The translations under genes and the position numbers were made by a program. 42,265 nt of DNA from Anaerolineae bacterium (GTDB taxonomy: Bacteria; Chloroflexota; Anaerolineae; Anaerolineales; Villigracilaceae). The notes beneath the pieces were generated by a model. It saw only the letters and a program-made list of their open reading frames with translations, made no database searches and had not been told where the DNA came from. Below are positions 29,843 to 41,047 of the stretch, piece after piece. How positions within the stretch are numbered: position 1 is the first letter of the stretch; each line of letters opens with the position of its first letter. The stretch spans positions 1 through 42,265 of the forward strand of contig JAKEFL010000231.1 of NCBI GenBank assembly GCA_022616105.1, given 5' to 3'.

Positions 29843-32800
29843 ATGATGAGTTCGATTGTTCGATCAAGTTTGAAATATCAATTCCTGGTGATTACGATTG
29901 CCGTCACGCTGATGGCATTCGGCCTCACCCAATTCCGCGGGATGCCGGTGGATGTCCTGCCGGAGTTCTCTCCGCCTTTTGTCGAGATCCAGACTGAGGC
30001 GCTGGGGCTTTCCGCGGAGGAAGTAGAGCAGATGATCACTGTTCCCATAGAGCAGGACCTGATGGCCGGCGTGGCATGGCTCGATGTCATCCGCTCCGAG
30101 TCCGTACCAGGTCTATCATCCGTGCTTATCTACTTCGAACCTGGGACCGATCTCTATCGTGCACGCCAGATGGTGACTGAGCGCCTTGCGCAGGCCGCAA
30201 TCGCCATCCCGCATGTATCCAAGCCGCCGACAATGATCCAGCCTCTGTCGTCACAGAGCCGGTTCATGATTGTCGGTCTCTCTTCGCAGGAACTGTCCCT
30301 GATCGAAATGTCCGTGCTTGCGCGTTGGACGATTGCCCCTCAGTTGATGGGCGTACCCGGCGTGGCACATGTGGCCATCTGGGGTAACCGCGATCGCCAG
30401 CTTCAAGTGTTGGTTGACCCTAAGCAACTTCATGAGCAGGGTGTTTCACTCGACCAGGTGGTCGCTACTACAGGAAATGCCCTCTGGGTCTCGTCCTTGA
30501 CCTATCTCGAGGCTTCATCGCCCGGCACCGGTGGCTTCATCGATACACCCAATCAACGGCTTAATGTCTGGCATGTTTTGCCAATTTCCTCCGCTGAGGA
30601 TCTTGCCAAAGTCCCCGTGGATGGTACAGAAGGGCTGCGCCTGGGGGATGTGGCTCAAGTGGTGGAAGATCATCAGTTGTTGATCGGGGATGCAGTCGTT
30701 AACGAAAACCCCAACCTTTTGTTGGTGATCGAAAAATTGCCTGGTATCAATACTCTGGAAGTGACACGCGCTGTGGAAGCTGAGCTGGCGGGCTTGCAGC
30801 CTGGTCTGCCTGGTGTCCAATTTGATGCCACGCTTTTCCGCCCGGCAACCTTTATCGAAATGGCAATCTCTAACCTCACCCGCACTCTGGTCGTTGCCGC
30901 GCTGCTTGTAGTTCTGGTACTGGGTATGTTCCTTTACGGATGGCGCGCTGCATTGATCAGCCTGGCAGCTATCGTGGTATCCCTGTTCGCTGCCCTTTTC
31001 GTGCTCTATATGCGGGGCGAAACTCTCAATTCAATGGTGATTGCAGGTCTGGCAGTGGCACTCGGTCTCGTGATTGATGATGCCATCATCGATGTTGAAC
31101 GTATTATACAGAGTCTGCGCCTAAACCGCCAGCAAGGTGGACTCAGATCAGCTCCCGCTGTGATCCTCGGAGCGATAGGCGAAACGCGCAGTGCGCTCTT
31201 CTTCGCTACCCTGATTACGCTGCTGGCGATCTTGCCGGTCTTCTTCATCCAGGGTGTTTCTGGTGCATTATTCCAGCCCATGGTTGTTTCTTATGCACTG
31301 GCTGTTCTGGCTGCCATGATTGTGGCAGTGACCGTTACACCGGCACTGAGTATGCTCCTCTTATCAAAGACAAACCTCTCACTCCGGGAATCAGCATTTG
31401 TTGCCCGGCTGCAGAGCGGTTATGACCGGAATTTGTCACGGACTGTTAAGAGTCCAGGGCTTGCCAACACTGCCATTGTAGTCCTCGTGGTGGCAGCGCT
31501 TGTTGCGCTTCCATTCCTGGTGGAAGAAAATACGGCACTTCCTACATTCAGAGAACCTTATCTCACGGTCCGGTTTGAAGCCGCGCCGGGCACATCCCAG
31601 CCTGAGATGAACCGTATCGTGTCCCGCGCCAACAACGAATTGCGTAGTATTTCCGGCGTGAGCAATGTCGGTGCCCATATCGGCCGCGCCGTGTTTGGGG
31701 ATCAGACAGGCAATGTCAATTCTGCGGAACTTTTCGTCAGCATCGATCCTAATGCAAACTATGATGCAACAGTAGCCGCAGTTCAAAATGTAATAAATGG
31801 ATATGCCGGAGTGGATCGCGAAGTGCGCACCTACGTGCAACAGACTCTCAGCCAGCCGCAGACCAGCACCGCATCTGATCTCACCGTGCGTGTATATGGT
31901 GAGGATCATGCTACCCTGCGCGCTGAGGCACAAAAGTTGCAGCAGGTTTTGGCCAAGGTAAATGGCGTGGCTGATCCGCGCGTAATCCTCACCGCGGATG
32001 AACCTTCCCTGGAGATCGAGGTCGATCTGGCTGCAGCGCAAAAATTTGGCGTCAAACCTGGCGATGTCCGCCGGACTGCTGCAATCCTTTTGTCCGGAAT
32101 TCAGGTCGGCAGCCTTTTCGAGGACCAGAAAGTATTCGATGTAGTCGTCTGGGGCGAGCCTCAGCTGCGTCAGAACGTCTCGAACATTCATGATCTGCTG
32201 ATCGATGTTCCAGGTATTGACACTGCTCCTGGCACACAAGTGCGTCTGGGAGACGTTGCCGAAGTGCGCATCGTGTCATCTCCAACTGTGATCCATCGCG
32301 AAGCTGTTTCGCCATACCTGGATATTGCCTTTGGTGTCGAAGGTCGAAATGCCAACGCTGTGGCCCAGAACGTGACTGCCGCCCTCCAGAATTACCCCTT
32401 CCCGCTCGAATATCACGCGGAAGTTGTAAATGATTACGGAGCCCGGCAGGCCGCTCAGCAAAGTATCATCATCGCCAGCCTTGTTGCCATTCTCGGGATT
32501 TTCCTGCTCCTGCAGGCTTCTTTCAGGAGCTGGAAACTGGCTGTGGCTGCGGTCATCACCCTGCCTGCAGCGTTGTCTGGTGCCATATTGGCAGACCTGT
32601 TGGGGAATGGTGGTGCAGTATCGCTCGGTTTGATGATGGGCTGCCTTGCAGTGGCAGGCATCGCGCTCCGCAACAGTATCATGCTGGTCAACCACTATCA
32701 GAATCTCGAAGAGCAACAGGGTGAGAACTTTGGTCCAGAATTGGTGATGCGCGGCTCACGAGAACGAATGTCGCCCATCCTGATGAACGCCCTGGCAACT

Positions 32801-33007
32801 GGTTTGGCCTTCCTGCCCTTTGTGCTCTTCGGCAATATACCCGGGCACGAGATTGTGCGCCCCATGGCTATCGTGATTATAGGCGGCCTGATTACTTCGA
32901 CCTGGTTCAACCTGTTCGCCATGCCTGCCTTGTACCTGCGCTTTGGCGCCAGCCGTGAAGCCGATCTTGGCTTCCAGCAAGTCACAGCCGTCGCAGCGGA
33001 CGATTAG
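29843..33007 (+). CDS. RND-superfamily efflux permease 1 (CusA/HME-like)
   Basis: The protein has 1054 residues; the ATG (second ATG directly after) follows GAGGAGG. The full two-repeat RND layout is present: TM1 near residues 13-31; a large extracytoplasmic loop; TM2-6 from about 345, with VIDDAIIDVERI in TM4 near 410; a second loop; and the C-terminal half ending RERMSPILMNALATGLAFLPF. The N-terminal words PVDVLPEFSPPFVEIQTEAL and MITVPIEQ are those of CusA/CzcA heavy-metal RND pumps, but the TM4 acidic motif differs from classic CusA. No outer-membrane channel or normal adaptor is adjacent. It opens the operon. Confidence 0.93.
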   Translation: MMSSIVRSSLKYQFLVITIAVTLMAFGLTQFRGMPVDVLPEFSPPFVEIQTEALGLSAEEVEQMITVPIEQDLMAGVAWLDVIRSESVPGLSSVLIYFEPGTDLYRARQMVTERLAQAAIAIPHVSKPPTMIQPLSSQSRFMIVGLSSQELSLIEMSVLARWTIAPQLMGVPGVAHVAIWGNRDRQLQVLVDPKQLHEQGVSLDQVVATTGNALWVSSLTYLEASSPGTGGFIDTPNQRLNVWHVLPISSAEDLAKVPVDGTEGLRLGDVAQVVEDHQLLIGDAVVNENPNLLLVIEKLPGINTLEVTRAVEAELAGLQPGLPGVQFDATLFRPATFIEMAISNLTRTLVVAALLVVLVLGMFLYGWRAALISLAAIVVSLFAALFVLYMRGETLNSMVIAGLAVALGLVIDDAIIDVERIIQSLRLNRQQGGLRSAPAVILGAIGETRSALFFATLITLLAILPVFFIQGVSGALFQPMVVSYALAVLAAMIVAVTVTPALSMLLLSKTNLSLRESAFVARLQSGYDRNLSRTVKSPGLANTAIVVLVVAALVALPFLVEENTALPTFREPYLTVRFEAAPGTSQPEMNRIVSRANNELRSISGVSNVGAHIGRAVFGDQTGNVNSAELFVSIDPNANYDATVAAVQNVINGYAGVDREVRTYVQQTLSQPQTSTASDLTVRVYGEDHATLRAEAQKLQQVLAKVNGVADPRVILTADEPSLEIEVDLAAAQKFGVKPGDVRRTAAILLSGIQVGSLFEDQKVFDVVVWGEPQLRQNVSNIHDLLIDVPGIDTAPGTQVRLGDVAEVRIVSSPTVIHREAVSPYLDIAFGVEGRNANAVAQNVTAALQNYPFPLEYHAEVVNDYGARQAAQQSIIIASLVAILGIFLLLQASFRSWKLAVAAVITLPAALSGAILADLLGNGGAVSLGLMMGCLAVAGIALRNSIMLVNHYQNLEEQQGENFGPELVMRGSRERMSPILMNALATGLAFLPFVLFGNIPGHEIVRPMAIVIIGGLITSTWFNLFAMPALYLRFGASREADLGFQQVTAVAADD

Positions 33008-33039
33008 TTAATACGGTTGAAATTAATAAAACGAAACAT

Positions 33040-34071
33040 GTGAGCAAAATGAATCCAAGAATAGATTCCAAGATAACAAGCCCTCAGCCTGAAGTTTTGG
33101 TGGCTGAGGGCCTCCAAAAGTCCTATGATAAGAGACATGCACTTCAAGGGTTGACATTAACCTTGAGGGAAGGGCGCATCCTGGGCTTCCTAGGTCCGAA
33201 CGGCGCCGGAAAAACGACCTCCATTCGCATCCTCACCACGATGATCACGCCCGACGCAGGCTCCTTCTCTGTGGATGGCATCAGTTCCGACCATCCTCAG
33301 GAGATTCGCCGCAGGATTGGCGTTCTGCCGGAAAACCTGGGATTCCCCAGGCAAATGACAGGGATGGAATACCTGACCTTTTTCGGCCAGCTCTACGGTA
33401 GAAGCGCGGCAAATGCCAGAGAAACTGCCAAGGCTCTCCTCGAGGATGTGGGCATGACCAACAGGGCAAAGTCCCTCATCGGCAGTTACAGCCATGGGAT
33501 GAAACAAAGAATTGGCATTGCACGTTCCCTGATCAATGACCCGGTGGTTGTTTTCCTGGACGAACCAACGTTGGGATTGGATCCTCGTGGCCAACAGGAA
33601 CTGTTGGAACTGATCCAGCGCATCGCTCGAGAGCGAGGAACCGGCATCATCCTATGCAGCCATCTTTTATCTGAGATCGAGAATGTTTGCGACGATGTGG
33701 TCATCCTGAACCAGGGTCAAATCGTTGCACGTGGGACAGTAGCTGATGTCATAGGCCGCACACAGCAAAATATTGTTCTGAAAAATTCCATGCGCATCCA
33801 AGTGCCGCCCGACTATGTTGCAAAGGCAAAACAGGCTTTGAAAGCCACCATGCCGAATGTCATCAAGGTGAACTCCATCAGCGAGACGGAAGGCTGGATA
33901 CGCGCGGAACTTGTGGACGCGGCAAATGGAAATTCCGATAAGACCTACCTGATCAATAATACCATTCTGAGTTCGCTTATTCGCGCCAAGATCCCGATCT
34001 TGAGTTTTGTGGTCGAAGGCGGCAAACTACAGGATGTATTCCTGCACCTGACCGAGGAGACGATCAGATGA
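33040..34071 (+). CDS. ABC transporter ATP-binding protein
   Basis: The protein has 343 residues from GTG 33040 (ATG 33049 is also possible). Walker A GPNGAGKTT is near 53-61, the signature YSHGMKQR near 150, Walker B VVFLDEPTLGLDP near 169, and the switch histidine in ILCSHLLSE near 205. A C-terminal domain of about 110 residues, typical of CcmA/NatA-type exporters of the ABC-2 class, follows. It powers the two permeases downstream. The first permease starts in its stop codon (ATGA), so they are translationally coupled. Confidence 0.95.
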   Translation: MSKMNPRIDSKITSPQPEVLVAEGLQKSYDKRHALQGLTLTLREGRILGFLGPNGAGKTTSIRILTTMITPDAGSFSVDGISSDHPQEIRRRIGVLPENLGFPRQMTGMEYLTFFGQLYGRSAANARETAKALLEDVGMTNRAKSLIGSYSHGMKQRIGIARSLINDPVVVFLDEPTLGLDPRGQQELLELIQRIARERGTGIILCSHLLSEIENVCDDVVILNQGQIVARGTVADVIGRTQQNIVLKNSMRIQVPPDYVAKAKQALKATMPNVIKVNSISETEGWIRAELVDAANGNSDKTYLINNTILSSLIRAKIPILSFVVEGGKLQDVFLHLTEETIR

Positions 34072-34913
34072 GCAATGTCACTGCCAGCCTGAATGATAAA
34101 CAAGCTAGCCAGCGCCGGGCAGAATCCTTTGGGCGCGGGGCGCCGGCCTGGTGGCTTATGTTCACAAGGGAACTCGCCGATCTCTGGATTGGCGGGAAAG
34201 CCCTGTACCTGATTCTCGCTTACAGCCTATTTCTTGGATTCCAGTCTTACGCCCAGGTAAAGACTAGTGAGACCAGCTTTATTCCCCCAAAGGAAATGGT
34301 ATTCGCCACATTGCAGGGTGTCATCTATATGAGCGGACTGATCGGGATGATTATCGGAGCAGATAGCATCAGTGGCGAACGAGAACGAGGCACTCTGGAG
34401 GCACTGCTGCTCACACCGGCGAGCCGAAGGCAGATGCTCCTCGGCAAATTCCTTGCTGGACTGTCTCCCTGGCCAATCGCCCTGCTTATTGCCATCCCCT
34501 TCTTCCTGATGCTGGCTCAGGGGGATCCGATTTTCGGTCAGGCCCTGTATTGGGGCAGCATCGTGGGAACCCTGCTTGCAATCGGCTTTACTGGCCTGGG
34601 AATGCTGGTCAGTTTCTGGTCGAACTCCAACCGGGTCAGTTTCTTTGTAAGTTTGGGAATTTATATCGTGCTCCTGCTCCCCTCTAGTTGGCCTGGCAGA
34701 ACCGTGAGAGGAACCGTGGCAAAGGTCTTCCAAAGATTGAACCCAATCGAAGGTCCGATTAATGAATTTCTGCCAAAAATTCTCGTAAACAATCGGCACT
34801 TTTCTGAGTACGCGCACTGGCTGTGGACGCCAGAAGTATTTGCCGGCGTGATAGTACTGCTGCTCTTCCTCTATGCAGGTGCCCGACTCAGCATAGAGGC
34901 GAGACAACGATAG
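34068..34913 (+). CDS. ABC-2 type permease 1
   Basis: This 281-residue membrane protein has six or so helices. After the first helix the conserved cytoplasmic segment SISGERERGTLEALLLTPAS lies near residues 100-120, a hallmark of ABC-2/NosY-GldF permeases. LTGLGMLVSFWSNSNRVSFF (as FTGLGMLVSFWSN) is another family word. It shares about half its sequence with permease 2 (GGKALYLILAYS, the GERER motif), so the pair arose by duplication and probably forms a heterodimer with the ATPase upstream. Substrate unknown. Confidence 0.9.
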   Translation: MSNVTASLNDKQASQRRAESFGRGAPAWWLMFTRELADLWIGGKALYLILAYSLFLGFQSYAQVKTSETSFIPPKEMVFATLQGVIYMSGLIGMIIGADSISGERERGTLEALLLTPASRRQMLLGKFLAGLSPWPIALLIAIPFFLMLAQGDPIFGQALYWGSIVGTLLAIGFTGLGMLVSFWSNSNRVSFFVSLGIYIVLLLPSSWPGRTVRGTVAKVFQRLNPIEGPINEFLPKILVNNRHFSEYAHWLWTPEVFAGVIVLLLFLYAGARLSIEARQR

Positions 34914-34936
34914 TTATTTTTTTAGGAGAATTTCGA

Positions 34937-36358
34937 ATGAAAAGTATGACAATGCAGCAGGTCAGTAAAACTAAGATTGAACCCTGGCGGCCAGCGGTGC
35001 CTGCTTCGTGGGTTATGCTTACAAGCGAACTCACCGATCTCTGGGTGGGAGGCAAGGCACTATACCTTATTCTCGCCTATAGCATTATGCTCGGAATCCA
35101 AACCTTCGTCCTGGCAACCAATTTCGAACTGAGTTTGTTCACGCCGCAAGAAATGGTCTTCGAGATCCTAAAATCTTCCATTCAGGTAAGCCTGCTGATC
35201 GGATTGATCATTGGCTCCGATAGCATCAGCGGCGAACGCGAGCGGGCCACACTTGAAGGGTTGTTGCTTACACCCGCCAGTCGCAGGCAAATTGTCCTTG
35301 GCAAATTCCTCGCCTCACTCTCCCCTTGGCCCGCGGCTCTATGTATCTCTCTACCCTTCATATTCGTCCTCGCTCAAGGCGAAGTAGCCCTTGGTCCGGC
35401 GTTTCTTTGGAGCGCCCTCGTGGGCATTCTCCTGGTTCCCGCCTTTACCGCGCTGGGGATGATCGTGAGCTTCTGGTGTAACTCAAACAAGACCAGTTTC
35501 TTCATTAGCCTCGGAATCTTCCTGGTCGTCATCCTAATGGGACAGGTGATTGGAACCACCAGAGTAGGTGTGTTCGGTCAAATGCTTCTATTTATCAACC
35601 CTATCCCATCCGGCTTTGATTTCCTTTCGAAGATGCTGGTCGCTAACGGCACCTTTGCTGAATTCTGGATTTATCTGAAGGCGTCTTTTGTCTTTACTGC
35701 CGTGGTGATAGGATTTCTCTTCTATTACCTTAGCCCAAGACTCATGGTTGAGGAAGGAAGGATGAGCAGACTCTGGTCGAAGTTGAGCCGAAGGGTTGGT
35801 TTGGCGGTGATCGTCTGTCTTGTGCTAGCCCCGAGCGTGACTTCTGCTCAGGCTCTCTACCAATCTGAGGCAGGCGATTTGCAGATGTCTATCAGTATTC
35901 ATTCCATACAAGGGAAAACCGGCGACACAATCAATTTCGATACGGTCGTGACCAATACCAGCGCACAGCAATCCCCGCCAGTGATTGCAGCAATGAACAT
36001 CATCAATTTGAGCAAAACAGGAGACGTGGTCGATCCGGAAGATTGGTCGCCCCAACGAACCCAATACATCGATTCCCTGGGGCCCAATCAATCCACTACA
36101 CTTTCCTGGACTGTTAATGCTGTCTTGGATGGTGATTTCATGGTCTACGTTGTCGGAATTCCCCAACCTCAAACTGCGGAGGACTCCAGCCAGGTCGTTG
36201 CCAGTCCGGGCTTGCATTTATCGGTAGAAAAATTCACCAGTCTCAACCCCAGCGGCATCCTCCCGTTTGTGATTGGCGTACCAGTGGTCTTAGTGATTGC
36301 CATCTCCCTGTTGTTCCGGATGCGGCGCAGGCAGATTGACACGGGCGGTTCATCGTGA
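34937..36358 (+). CDS. ABC-2 type permease 2 fused to an extracellular domain
   Basis: ATG 34937 follows AGGAGAATTTCGA, rejecting the longer upstream frame. The protein has 473 residues. Residues 1-270 are an ABC-2 permease like its neighbour (SISGERERATLEGLLLTPAS). After PRLMVEEGR comes a second hydrophobic segment (VGLAVIVCLVLAPSVTSAQA) that looks like a signal peptide with a cleavable AxA end. About 150 residues of beta-rich extracellular domain follow (NFDTVVTNTSAQQSPPVIAA, TTLSWTVNAVLDGDFMVYVV), like CARDB or DUF11. A last membrane helix (LPFVIGVPVVLVIAISLLF) and basic tail end it. AGGAAGG-ATG at the junction hints at a former separate gene. Confidence 0.85.
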   Translation: MKSMTMQQVSKTKIEPWRPAVPASWVMLTSELTDLWVGGKALYLILAYSIMLGIQTFVLATNFELSLFTPQEMVFEILKSSIQVSLLIGLIIGSDSISGERERATLEGLLLTPASRRQIVLGKFLASLSPWPAALCISLPFIFVLAQGEVALGPAFLWSALVGILLVPAFTALGMIVSFWCNSNKTSFFISLGIFLVVILMGQVIGTTRVGVFGQMLLFINPIPSGFDFLSKMLVANGTFAEFWIYLKASFVFTAVVIGFLFYYLSPRLMVEEGRMSRLWSKLSRRVGLAVIVCLVLAPSVTSAQALYQSEAGDLQMSISIHSIQGKTGDTINFDTVVTNTSAQQSPPVIAAMNIINLSKTGDVVDPEDWSPQRTQYIDSLGPNQSTTLSWTVNAVLDGDFMVYVVGIPQPQTAEDSSQVVASPGLHLSVEKFTSLNPSGILPFVIGVPVVLVIAISLLFRMRRRQIDTGGSS

Positions 36359-36399
36359 ACCACTCAAAACATTTTTCAAATTTATATTGGAGGTATCAA

Positions 36400-36816
36400 A
36401 TGAAACACATCAATCGCTGGCTAGTTATCGTCCTTGTCCTTGTCACTCTCGGACTTGCAGCCTGTGGCCCCAAAACGACAACGGTGGAAAAAATCGTTCC
36501 GTCGAAACTTGAGCCCATCGAAGGCACGGATCTCAGCCGTGTGATCCTCACCGAGAAGGCCGCCGAGCGAATCGGCATCGAAACCGTCCTGGCAAGCGGG
36601 AAGTCTGTTCCCTTTGCTGCGGTAATTTATGATATCGAAGGCAATACCTGGATCTATACCAACCCCGAACCTCTGACCTTCGTTCGAGAACCCATCGTGA
36701 TAGATCAGATCGAAGGTGATACAGCCATATTGGCTGAAGCCTTAAACTCTGAAATGAACGTTGTAACGGTTGGAGTGATCGAGTTGTATGGTACTGAGAC
36801 CGGAGTTTCCAAATAA
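36400..36816 (+). CDS. Lipoprotein resembling the distal end of an RND adaptor
   Basis: ATG 36400 follows GGAGG. The 138-residue protein has a lipoprotein signal with lipobox LAAC (Cys22). After a short linker comes one beta-rich domain: LTEKAAERIGIETVL, VPFAAVIYDIEGNTWIYTNP, TFVREPIVIDQIEGDTAILA and a last VVTVGVIELYGTETGV. Those phrases correspond to the membrane-proximal C-terminal part of CusB/HlyD-type adaptors (end of barrel and MP domain). The lipoyl and helical-hairpin domains that would reach an outer membrane are absent. It lies 18 bp before RND permease 2 and is probably its accessory subunit on the outer face of the cell membrane. Confidence 0.75.
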   Translation: MKHINRWLVIVLVLVTLGLAACGPKTTTVEKIVPSKLEPIEGTDLSRVILTEKAAERIGIETVLASGKSVPFAAVIYDIEGNTWIYTNPEPLTFVREPIVIDQIEGDTAILAEALNSEMNVVTVGVIELYGTETGVSK

Positions 36817-36834
36817 CGCACCAGGAGGTGCACT

Positions 36835-39800
36835 ATGCGCTGGATTGTTCAAGCAAGCTTACGTTATCGCTACCTGGTGATGTTTCTCGCCGCAGTGCTG
36901 TTGGTCTTTGGCATTGCCCGGTTGAGGAACTCCGCGGTAGATGTCTTTCCTGAGTTCGCGCCGCCCAAGGTAGAGGTTCAGACACTCTCCATGGGGCTTT
37001 CCGCGACGGACGTGGAGGAGCTCGTCACAGTACCGATCGAGCAGGCGCTCAATGGGGTGCCCGGGCTGGACGTAATGCGCTCCAGGTCAGTAACCGACCT
37101 GTCTGATATCTTTCTGATCTTTAAGCCTGGCACCGATCTGATCTACGCGCGGCAGTTGGTTGCAGAGCGCCTCGCAGCGGTCTACCCAACACTGCCCACC
37201 TGGGCCGCCCCGCCGGTGATCATTCAACCTCTGTCATCGACCAGCCGGGCAATGAAGATCGGCATTTCCTCAGATATCTATGACGAAATGGATCTGTCGA
37301 TGATCGCTTATTGGAAGATCCGTGCCCGCCTGTTGGATGTGCCTGGCGTTGCCAATGTGCCGATCTACGGCGAGAAGATCAAGATGCCGCAGGTACAGGT
37401 GGATTTGAAAAAGATGCAGGAGCATAATGTCACGCTCGATGAAGTGATGGAAGTCACCTCAGATGCCCTGGATGTCAGCTTATTAATGTTCTCTGAAGGC
37501 TCATTCATTGGCACGGGCGGATTCATCGACACACCCAACCAGCGGCTTGGCATCCGCTCCGTTCTGCCCCTCATCACCCCTGAAAAATTGGGTGAGGTGC
37601 CCATCAATGATCGAACAAAGCCTGATGGCTCGCCTCTGCTCATTAAAGATGTGGCTAATGTCGTTTGGGGAACTTGGTCGCTCTTTGGGGATGCAGTCAT
37701 TAACGAAGGCCCCGGTTTAATGCTGATCGTTGAAAAGCTGCCGTGGGCAAACACCCTGCAAGTAACTCGCGGGGTGGAAGAGGCGATCGCCGAGATGCAG
37801 CCCGGACTGGATGGGATAAATATCGACACCACCATCTTCCGGCCGGCGACCTTCATCGAAACCTCGATCAATAATCTCACCCAATCACTTCTGATTGGCG
37901 CCGTTCTGGTCGTGATCATCCTGCTCTTCTTCCTATACGAATGGCGGGTTGCGCTGATCAGTGCTACGATCATCCCGTTATCACTCATGGCTTCCATGCT
38001 GGTGCTTAACCTGCAGGGTGTGGCGATCAATGTGATGACCCTGGCAGGCCTTGCGATTGCAATCGGCGCTGTGGTAGACGATGCCATCGTTGATGTCGAA
38101 AATATTGTGCGTCGTCTGCGCCGCCTCCGCCAGGAAGGCAGCACTCAGTCGACAGCCAGCATTGTGCTGGAGGCTTCCCTAGAAGTGCGTGGCTCGATTA
38201 TCTATGCTTCACTCATTGAGATCGCCGCCTTGATGCCGGTCTTTTTCCTGGATGGCTTGTCAGGCGCGTTCTTCCGGCCCCTGGCCACCGCTTATGTTGT
38301 GGCGGGCCTGGTCTCCCCGTTCGTTGCTCTGACGGTCACACCAGCCATGGTCTTGACCCTGCTGTCAAACGCACCCATAGACCATCGCCCATCCCCGATC
38401 ATTCCCTGGCTCCACAGTATCTATGACCGTGTACTGGGACGGGTTTTCCGTGCGCCCGCTCTGGCTTACGCTACTGCAGGCGTGATAGTGGTGGCCGGAC
38501 TGGCGGTAACGCCGTTTCTTGGGCAGGAATTATTGCCCTCGTTCAAGGAACGCGACTTCCTGATGCACTGGATTCTCAAGCCTGGCGCTTCCCACCCTGA
38601 AATGTGGCGCATCACCGCCGAGTCTTGCCGCGAATTATTGACGATCCCCGGCGTACGCAACTGCGGCTCACATATCGGTCAAGCCGTTAATGCCGATGAA
38701 CCCTACGGTGTCTACTTTACCGAAAACTGGATCAGTGTCGACCCTTCGGTTGACTATGACAAAACGCTGAACTCGGTTCAGGAGCTGGTGGATGGCTACC
38801 CTGGGCTGGTCCGCGATGTGCAGACCTATCTAAAAGAAAGAATCCGTGAGGTTCTCACGGGATCGAGCGATACGGTCGTGATCCGTATTTATGGTCAGGA
38901 CTTACATGCCCTCGGTGAGAAGGCAGATGAAGTTCGGGCTGCGTTGGAAGGCATTCCTGGAATCGTGGATCTAAAAAAGGAACTCCACATGGAGACGCCT
39001 CAGATAGAAGTCGAGGTGGATCTGGCAAAGGCTGAGCAATACGGCCTGAAACCGGGCGATGTCCGCCGTGCAGCAGCTTTCCTGTTACAGGGCGAAGAAG
39101 TCGGAGATATTTTCCTCAATGGGAAGACCTACGATGTAAATGTGTGGAGCACGCCCGAAACGCGCCACAGCCTGAACGATATTGAAAATCTCCTGATCGA
39201 TACACCCAGCGGTGAACGTGTGCGCCTGGCGGATGTAGCAGACGTACGCATTGGGGCAGTTCCGAATGTGATCGAACGTGAGGGCCAGTCGCGCAAAATT
39301 GACGTTTCAGCGAATGTAAAGGGACGCGATCTCGGTTCTGTAGCGGATGATGTCGAAGATACCCTAGCTAAGATCGAGTTCCCACTGGGCTTCCATGCAG
39401 AGGTGCTCGGCGAGTTTGCAGAACGGGAAAAGGCGCAACAGAACTTACTCCTCGCCGGGTCTATCGCTGTCATCGCCATATTCTTCCTGCTGTATACATC
39501 CTTCGGGAACTGGCGCCTGGCTACACTTACTTTCTTCACCCTGCCCTGGGCGCTGGTAGGCGGCTTGCTGGCAGCATATTTTAGCAGTGGCGTACTCTCC
39601 CTTGGCTCACTGGTTGGGCTGCTCACGATCCTGGGCATTGCCACCCGCAACGGCATCATGATGGTCAGTCACTTCCAGCATCTGGAGCAGGAGGAAGGTA
39701 TGACCTTTGGTCCGGAGTTGGTCATGCGCGGCGCGAAAGAACGCATCGCACCCATCATGATGACGGCATTGACGACTGGCCTGGCGCTTATCCCTCTGGC

Positions 39801-39987
39801 GATTGCCGGCGACTTGCCTGGTCATGAGATCGAGCATCCAATGGCACTCGTCATCCTGGGTGGACTGGTCACTTCGACCCTGCTCAACCTGCTAGTGGTA
39901 CCCACCTTGTATCTGCGCTTTGGTAAAGCTCCTGAGCGTGCAGGCAGATCAATCGCAGTTTCGCCTGAGCCAGCCGGAACCGATTAG
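36835..39987 (+). CDS. RND-superfamily efflux permease 2 (CusA/HME-like)
   Basis: The 1050-residue protein follows CACCAGGAGGTGC, an excellent ribosome-binding site. It has the same layout as permease 1: VDVFPEFAPPKVEVQTLSMG near the N-terminus, VTVPIEQALNGVPGLD, TM4 motif VVDDAIVDVENI near 410, and the C-terminal FGPELVMRGAKERIAPIMM. Overall the two share an estimated 45-50 percent of residues by eye. Here VPIEQALNG keeps the normal CusA word, where permease 1 has VPIEQDLMAGVAW. RND pumps act as trimers; two different subunits in one operon could form a heterotrimer (as MdtBC) or separate pumps. The lipoprotein before it may act as the adaptor. Confidence 0.93.
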   Translation: MRWIVQASLRYRYLVMFLAAVLLVFGIARLRNSAVDVFPEFAPPKVEVQTLSMGLSATDVEELVTVPIEQALNGVPGLDVMRSRSVTDLSDIFLIFKPGTDLIYARQLVAERLAAVYPTLPTWAAPPVIIQPLSSTSRAMKIGISSDIYDEMDLSMIAYWKIRARLLDVPGVANVPIYGEKIKMPQVQVDLKKMQEHNVTLDEVMEVTSDALDVSLLMFSEGSFIGTGGFIDTPNQRLGIRSVLPLITPEKLGEVPINDRTKPDGSPLLIKDVANVVWGTWSLFGDAVINEGPGLMLIVEKLPWANTLQVTRGVEEAIAEMQPGLDGINIDTTIFRPATFIETSINNLTQSLLIGAVLVVIILLFFLYEWRVALISATIIPLSLMASMLVLNLQGVAINVMTLAGLAIAIGAVVDDAIVDVENIVRRLRRLRQEGSTQSTASIVLEASLEVRGSIIYASLIEIAALMPVFFLDGLSGAFFRPLATAYVVAGLVSPFVALTVTPAMVLTLLSNAPIDHRPSPIIPWLHSIYDRVLGRVFRAPALAYATAGVIVVAGLAVTPFLGQELLPSFKERDFLMHWILKPGASHPEMWRITAESCRELLTIPGVRNCGSHIGQAVNADEPYGVYFTENWISVDPSVDYDKTLNSVQELVDGYPGLVRDVQTYLKERIREVLTGSSDTVVIRIYGQDLHALGEKADEVRAALEGIPGIVDLKKELHMETPQIEVEVDLAKAEQYGLKPGDVRRAAAFLLQGEEVGDIFLNGKTYDVNVWSTPETRHSLNDIENLLIDTPSGERVRLADVADVRIGAVPNVIEREGQSRKIDVSANVKGRDLGSVADDVEDTLAKIEFPLGFHAEVLGEFAEREKAQQNLLLAGSIAVIAIFFLLYTSFGNWRLATLTFFTLPWALVGGLLAAYFSSGVLSLGSLVGLLTILGIATRNGIMMVSHFQHLEQEEGMTFGPELVMRGAKERIAPIMMTALTTGLALIPLAIAGDLPGHEIEHPMALVILGGLVTSTLLNLLVVPTLYLRFGKAPERAGRSIAVSPEPAGTD

Positions 39988-40020
39988 ATACAAAATCACT
40001 GTTAATCTCTTATTTTAGGT

Positions 40021-40058
40021 CGACACACGATATGGTATTATTGCCATATCGTGTGTCG
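40021..40058 (+). promoter_or_regulatory. 15-bp hairpin before the lipoprotein gene
   Basis: CGACACACGATATGG (40021-40035) and its perfect complement (40044-40058) enclose the loop TATTATTG. It ends 14 nt before the ATG. It may terminate the RND transcript or act as operator. The core GGTATTATTGCC is echoed in the hairpin at 41006-41047. Confidence 0.75.
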
Positions 40059-40072
40059 AGAATCGAGGCAAA

Positions 40073-40918
40073 ATGCAACGTTCTCACCTCTTATTTGTAG
40101 CAGTGGCTCTCCTCATCACAATTATTGTTTCAGCATGTGCGCCAAGTGCACCTGATGATCCGGTTTTCGATAGCTTCGATCCCAATAATTTCGACAATTC
40201 GACCAACATAGATAATGAATGGATGCCCTTGAAACCTGGCACGCAGTTGGTTTTTGAAGGGGAAACCATTGAGAATGGCGAATCAGTTCCGCATCGAGTG
40301 GTGATTAATGTTACGGATTTAACCAAGGTAATCAGCGGGGTCCGCTCAGTCGTCACCTGGGACTTGGACTATAGCGGAGACGAATTAGTGGAGGCAGAAC
40401 TTGCCTTCTTCGCCCAGGATAATGACGGGAATGTCTGGCGTATGGGTGAGTATCCTGAAGAATATCAGGATGGCAAATTCATTGATAATCCAACCTGGAT
40501 TCATGGCTTGGATAATGCGCTCGCGGGCATTGCAATGCAAGCCAACCCACAACCCGGCACACCGGATTATCCTCAAGGGTGGGGTCCCGAGGTAGATTGG
40601 ACCGACCGCGGCTTGGTGGATAAGATCGTTCAGGAAACTTGTGTCCCAGCCGGCTGTTATCAGAATGTTTTGGTCATCAAAGAAACCAGTGCAACTGAAG
40701 TTGGAGCGTTTCAGCTCAAGTATTTTGCGCCTGGCGTGGGTAATGTTTTAGTGGACTGGACTGGCACAGACAAAACGCAAGAGACTCTGGAACTGGTTGA
40801 ATACAATCAACTCAGCCCCGAAGAGATGGACGAGGTCCGCGCCTCGGCGTTGGAACTGGAAAAGAGCGCCTATGAAAGAAGCAAAGATGTATACAGCCAG
40901 ACACCGCCGTTGGAATAA
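40073..40918 (+). CDS. Lipoprotein of unknown function
   Basis: The 281-residue protein has an N-terminal signal with lipobox VSAC (Cys22), then CAPSAPDDPVFDSFDPNNFD and DNEWMPLKPGTQLVFEGETI. That last phrase, together with VTWDLDYSGDELVEAELAFF, AQDNDGNVWRMGEYPEEY and ETCVPAGCYQNVLVIKE, belongs to a family of secreted proteins seen in actinobacteria and Chloroflexota with no known role. A Cys pair (ETCVPAGC) may form a disulfide. It is flanked by two hairpins with similar loops, so it may be transcribed apart from the RND genes. No ribosome-binding site is obvious (GAGGCAAA). Confidence 0.75.
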   Translation: MQRSHLLFVAVALLITIIVSACAPSAPDDPVFDSFDPNNFDNSTNIDNEWMPLKPGTQLVFEGETIENGESVPHRVVINVTDLTKVISGVRSVVTWDLDYSGDELVEAELAFFAQDNDGNVWRMGEYPEEYQDGKFIDNPTWIHGLDNALAGIAMQANPQPGTPDYPQGWGPEVDWTDRGLVDKIVQETCVPAGCYQNVLVIKETSATEVGAFQLKYFAPGVGNVLVDWTGTDKTQETLELVEYNQLSPEEMDEVRASALELEKSAYERSKDVYSQTPPLE

Positions 40919-41005: not shown

Positions 41006-41047
41006 AACTTCCCCAATCATGGTAGTAATGCCATGATTGGGGAAGTT
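41006..41047 (+). terminator. 17-bp hairpin after the lipoprotein gene
   Basis: AACTTCCCCAATCATGG (41006-41022) and its perfect complement (41031-41047) enclose TAGTAATG. ACTTTTT follows, so it can act as an intrinsic terminator. The core GGTAGTAATGCC resembles the loop of the hairpin at 40021. Confidence 0.75.

Follow-up and report, generated by a model that had tools for sequence, protein, structure and literature searches.

The 138-residue lipoprotein encoded at positions 36400 to 36816 of the window (the whole stretch of 42,265 nucleotides analysed here, from an Anaerolineae bacterium) can with good support be read as an RND adaptor that has kept just its membrane-proximal (MP) domain. 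We are fairly confident that this mini-adaptor, devoid of barrel, lipoyl and hairpin domains, is a lipid-anchored MP domain that would dock on the RND2 pump without any conduit. What was computed is homology, a fold match, missing domains, gene order, the absence of TolC and Omp85, and a repeated change in length. The features of the locus are as follows.

29843-33007, plus strand: RND1 permease, 1054 aa, directly upstream of the adaptor in other genomes (PF00873, 5e-190; synteny)
33040-34071, plus strand: ATPase of an ABC cassette between RND1 and the mini-adaptor (profile match, synteny)
34068-34913, plus strand: ABC-2 permease 1 (PF12679, 2.8e-23)
34823-36358, plus strand: ABC-2 permease 2, with an additional extracytoplasmic C-terminal region (PF12679, 1.3e-16); the ORF call begins upstream of the likely start
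36389-36394, plus strand: Shine-Dalgarno GGAGGT of the mini-adaptor (read from the sequence)
36400-36816, plus strand: the mini-adaptor, a lipoprotein of 138 aa in which the MP domain is all that remains of an RND adaptor (sequence, family profiles, alignments, predicted fold)
36400-36465, plus strand: signal peptide and lipobox LAAC, with Cys22 as the predicted lipidated residue (sequence; Cys22 invariant in 11 aligned homologues)
36490-36591, plus strand: N-half of the MP domain (approximately residues 31-64), corresponding to what precedes the barrel, lipoyl and hairpin domains in full adaptors (hhalign)
36592-36603, plus strand: junction, where the barrel/(lipoyl)/hairpin segment of full adaptors, about 195 columns, is absent (alignments)
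36598-36813, plus strand: C-half of the MP domain, residues 67-138 (hhalign; TIGR01730 positions 252-313 of 322)
36823-36829, plus strand: Shine-Dalgarno AGGAGGT of RND2 (read from the sequence)
36835-39987, plus strand: RND2 permease, CusA/CzcA-like, 1050 aa, the predicted partner (PF00873, 5e-219; TIGR00914, 578.7 bits)
40073-40918, plus strand: conserved lipoprotein after RND2 (synteny; no convincing Pfam match)
41006-41047, plus strand: strong terminator-like hairpin with a 19-pair stem, a plausible operon end

The gene runs from the ATG at 36400 to the TAA at 36814-36816, and 18 bp separate it from the RND2 start codon at 36835. The lipobox and its predicted lipidation would provide the anchor, lipid or transmembrane, of an adaptor. 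A sequence-only reading of this DNA had described such a lipoprotein at this spacing, ending in an adaptor-like phrase; coordinates, lipobox and spacing can all be read directly, and the phrase, VVTVGVIELYGTETGV, is found at the C-terminus.

On its own, the mini-adaptor (P0001) matches TIGR01730 with E=0.092 and 11.7 bits, short of the curated cut-off of 94.9 bits, its residues 67-129 falling on model positions 252-313 of 322; a PDB search with this single sequence found nothing. Since the single sequence gives so weak a family match, the case for its identity needs the family profile. Homologues were collected by whole-genome searches across Chloroflexota, and the family alignment holds 11 MP-only forms with 17 invariant residues, including Cys22, W84, Y86, R96 and E128. 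In scans of the individual sequences, TIGR01730 was matched by six of the 11 (best 7.7e-7) and the CzcB model by two (best 2.8e-5). Pfam gave no domain in any family member, and weak Pfam matches to LptM and to lipoprotein were discarded as signal-peptide artefacts. When the family profile is compared with PDB, its top matches are adaptors, 6vej (TriA) at 2.7e-4 and 4l8j at 0.018. Two candidate homologues were rejected: L005 (G087) is an unrelated lipoprotein matching on the signal region, and L023 an unrelated membrane protein matching by chance.

The MP domain of full adaptors is formed by the two ends of the chain (established knowledge, also given in PMC13328181). The full-length set used for comparison consisted of plasmid adaptors from Hymenobacter, Sphingomonas and Methylomonas together with CusB. 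Of the 349 columns of the full adaptors, hhalign placed the N-half profile of the mini-adaptors on 37-78 (probability 96) and the C-half profile on the last 76, 273-348 (probability 99.3). The start of the full adaptors aligns with the mini-adaptors (GTDLSRVILTEKAAERIGIET in the mini forms versus ESDLTTVTITADAEKRLGIKT in the full ones), as does their end, and between the two some 195 full-adaptor columns, comprising the barrel, the hairpin and any lipoyl domain, are missing from the mini-adaptors. Given that the MP domain is made from two chain ends, both of its halves are present in the mini-adaptor, while the barrel, lipoyl and hairpin domains are gone. The scripted half-split cut G272 and G411a at the wrong place, and these two yielded noise. 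Set directly against CusB alone, the family gave low hhalign probabilities (1-15), because one sequence has no alignment depth. A C-half match to PDB 8pjx was rejected as a repeat artefact, being a 14-residue match repeated within one chain.

The predicted fold points the same way. AlphaFold2 with the 11-sequence alignment gave a model with a pLDDT of 86.6 and a pTM of 0.71, residues 31-140 lying at 84-98 by block. The first Foldseek match in PDB is CusB in the CusBA complex (3ne5, E 3.2e-3, probability 1.00), and every listed match with a probability of 0.98 or more is an adaptor (CusB, AcrA, MexA, ZneB, BesA, TriABC and the SilB MP construct 5a4g); the best-matching domains are the MP domains of CusB, AcrA, MexA and ZneB. 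The E-values all exceed 1e-3, with coverage mostly of the C-half (55-70 columns), and are modest because the MP domain is small and is interrupted in the targets. TMq is about 0.4, as measured on a length that includes the signal peptide. Matches to ATP synthase were discarded for low probability and large rmsd. The confident PDB matches are adaptors, and the outcome that would have refuted the earlier proposal, a fold bearing no relation to the MP or barrel domains of adaptors, did not occur. Its central claim, an RND adaptor reduced to the MP domain, is supported by the family profiles, the end-matching halves, the predicted MP fold and the conserved slot, and its claim that lipoyl and hairpin domains are lacking agrees with the alignment, neither region being found within the 138 residues.

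Among Chloroflexota genomes, we found 19 loci where a member of the mini-adaptor's family adjoins a tandem pair of RND genes. MP-only forms make up 13 of them (the window, G170, G363, G362, G280, G513, G272, G422, G411, G388, G666, G745 and G734, the last ending at a contig edge before RND2), with lengths of about 138-157 aa (138 in the window, 151 in G170). The other six are barrel+MP forms: G493 with 256 aa, G114 with 259, bin26 with 248, G661 with about 258, G668 with about 283, and G113 with 544, the last carrying an inserted domain. At the mini-adaptor's junction point there is 1.2 kb in G113 and 0.3-0.5 kb in G493, G114 and bin26. None of the 19 Chloroflexota adaptors has a hairpin or lipoyl domain. 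The length survey beside RND genes thus sets 138-157 or 248-283 (544) aa in Chloroflexota against 314-419 aa in diderm relatives, where TolC is encoded alongside. In the relatives, synteny places the adaptor between the two RND genes, with RND1 directly upstream. The mini-adaptor is not a chance resemblance, because 12 other MP-only homologues occupy the equivalent place and 17 residues are invariant.

In a draw of 400 genomes, 13 had an RND2 relative and 10 of these 13 had the adaptor; the remaining three are G542 (a lone RND2 without adaptor), G313 (contig edge) and G508 (a remote RND, 29% identical). An orphan mini-adaptor of 155 aa was seen in G411 on C208 (L088 3700-4167), with no RND gene adjoining and a cupredoxin-like ORF about 0.8 kb upstream. 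Several of the source genomes are probably metagenome assemblies. Neither the mini-adaptor nor RND2 occurs in four further genomes from the window's genus or in those sampled from its family, and the nearest relative, G493, shares no more than its taxonomic order with the window's genome, suggesting that the locus (29843-40918) was gained horizontally.

With respect to the neighbouring genes, RND2 scores 578.7 bits against the heavy-metal RND model TIGR00914, below the cut-off of 701.45. The three-methionine site of CusA (M573, M623, M672) is not present, the equivalent residues being H/F/E in RND2 and R/S/Q in RND1; hence, export of copper or silver is not implied for either. The transmembrane relay aspartate expected of a proton-coupled RND permease (CusA D405) is an aspartate in both, and an arginine stands in place of CusA E939. 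The lipoprotein family after RND2 is present at the majority of loci and would seem to be a dedicated part of the pump; in L008 (9566-11350), two copies lie in one protein. A domain of this lipoprotein sits inside the barrel of the 544-aa G113 adaptor (L010 15857-17491), where the insert is apparently permuted, with the later part of one lipoprotein copy preceding the beginning of another. This may be either an assembly chimera or a real fusion tying the lipoprotein to the pump. Only in the window does the ABC cassette lie between RND1 and the adaptor; in G272, a cassette of this type comes after the lipoprotein. In the window, ABC-2 permease 2 (34823-36358) has about 150 extra extracytoplasmic residues ahead of its last transmembrane helix. 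Cassettes of the same type were also observed beside RND genes in G272, G542 and G313 (L081 13626-16012; L057 from 5756; L060 from 2750). Because the cassette recurs beside RND genes at differing positions, its tie to the pump seems real even though its place shifts.

This neighbourhood lends itself to another explanation, in which the MP domain was recruited as an accessory to the lipoprotein or ABC neighbours, or to link RND1 with RND2, and does not serve as a substrate-vetting subunit. Its position between two RND genes, the lipoprotein encoded next at most loci and fused into the G113 adaptor, and the ABC cassette adjoining in the window and in G272 would all suit such a role. However, the cassette is missing from most adaptor loci, and in pumps already known it is the RND porter region that the MP domain binds (PMC4446572); we therefore regard recruitment of this kind as unlikely, though the best of the alternatives. 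Far less probable is a decaying gene, a degenerate remnant that has lost its middle and its function. Three of the four canonical domains are indeed lost, and close relatives differ in length (138 aa in the window, 256 aa in G493), but the ORF is intact, with a good Shine-Dalgarno sequence and a lipobox, the predicted fold is confident, and an MP-only gene is kept in the same slot in 13 genomes, 17 residues being invariant over 11 of its forms. That the middle of a normal adaptor was dropped in assembling the window's genome (367 contigs) has next to no probability, as MP-only forms recur in 12 other genomes, the single-contig G280 included, which refutes an artefact in general.

A tree of the RND2 sequences shows how an RND adaptor reduced to its MP domain is spread among barrel-containing relatives. 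The window is sister to G493, whose RND2 is 81% identical, and the MP-only G170 is sister to G113, which has the barrel. The tree requires a minimum of five switches between barrel-containing and MP-only forms, and a single MP-only clade is rejected (AU p 3e-7). Such counts do not separate gain from loss; nevertheless, repeated loss of the barrel would be the simpler reading, because the barrel is present in the outgroup and could be regained only through recombination. A tree of the MP domain only (107 columns) is too poorly resolved to place the window protein firmly.

The sequence-only reading had regarded such a reduction as expected if there were no outer membrane to reach. TolC-type OEP (PF02321) was found in none of 18 carrier genomes tested and Omp85 in none of 13; the same searches match in seven of 14 control genomes, E. 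coli, Caulobacter, Thermus and Bacteroides among them, and in no Gram-positive control. The host bacterium thus seems to have no outer membrane, and to this extent the rationale fits. It is insufficient as an explanation, because the same genome keeps a full-length adaptor of 428 aa directly beside a MacB-type ABC ATPase. Lacking an outer membrane allows an adaptor to be reduced but does not compel it. Gram-positive adaptors known in 2015 also keep large hairpins (Symmons et al. 2015, PMC4446572).

Several known systems resemble the mini-adaptor in part. CusB of E. coli (3ne5, 3ow7), the adaptor of an RND metal pump, shares the MP fold, the order of adaptor then RND permease, and both alignable ends; unlike the mini-adaptor, it retains the barrel, the lipoyl and the helical domains and is paired with an outer-membrane channel, CusC, and unlike CusA, the partner RNDs of the mini-adaptor lack the three metal-site methionines. 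The nearest full-length relatives found are the plasmid adaptors of Hymenobacter, Sphingomonas and Methylomonas (314-419 aa), with 35-39% identity over the MP columns and partner RNDs about 50% identical to RND2. These diderm adaptors differ in keeping barrel and hairpin (in Hymenobacter also lipoyl) and in being encoded with TolC beside them. The Sphingomonas and Methylomonas forms of 314-326 aa (L025 5461-6438, L026 4215-5195, L075 1751-2695) apparently have no lipoyl domain, while hairpin and barrel are kept and TolC is present; they seem to be another partial reduction. A Sphingomonas plasmid match with 95% coverage, taken as a candidate diderm mini-adaptor, proved to be a 325-aa adaptor next to TolC. 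BesA of Borrelia burgdorferi (4kku) is also a natural RND adaptor without an alpha-hairpin (PMC3807786, PMC4446572), but it has further domains besides MP and belongs to a diderm pump whose channel is BesC. The SilB MP construct (5a4g) is an MP-containing fragment of similar size studied alone, although it is an engineered 180-residue fragment and not a natural gene. YknX of Bacillus subtilis is likewise an MP-domain adaptor in a monoderm (PMC4446572), but it keeps a prominent hairpin and its partner is an ABC transporter. EmrA is without an MP domain (PMC4158417). According to the 2015 review, adaptors without a hairpin would be expected in Gram-positives, but none had been found (PMC4446572), and our search of the open-access literature found no natural MP-only adaptor.

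MP domains are the transporter-recognition region of adaptors and have been proposed to vet or present substrate or to sense the state of the pump (PMC4446572); an MP residue of AcrA changes which entry channels of AcrB work (PMC8934357). Physical binding to RND2, its stoichiometry, the function and the cargo are the parts of our explanation that we infer. The mini-adaptor would most likely dock on the porter region of a trimeric RND2 pump, where the MP domains of CusB and AcrA bind, and RND1 may perhaps join RND2 beneath it as an RND1/RND2 hetero-oligomer. The lipid-anchored MP domain alone would then present substrate or sense the pump's state, and so modulate or load the RND pair. No conduit would be built, because such a pump would release its cargo straight outside a cell that has no outer membrane. 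Counting against this scheme are the RND contacts that AcrA also makes through its barrel (PMC8934357), which is absent from the mini-adaptor, as well as the full-length adaptor kept in the same genome, the orphan copy in G411 and the adaptor-less RND2 of G542.

The broader proposal, to which we give even chances, is that Chloroflexota possess a distinct monoderm RND machine, with two different RND permeases, a stand-alone MP domain as the sole adaptor that regulates or loads the pump, a dedicated lipoprotein and no conduit. If true, the transporter-facing role of an adaptor would be separable from its outer-membrane role and able to outlive it. In the adaptor field it is debated whether the MP domain acts simply as a spacer or takes an active part in substrate vetting and energy coupling (PMC4446572, PMC8934357). 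That a natural system has kept just the MP domain, several times over, suggests that this domain has a job of its own, and the mini-adaptor offers a minimal object of about 115 residues for testing that role.
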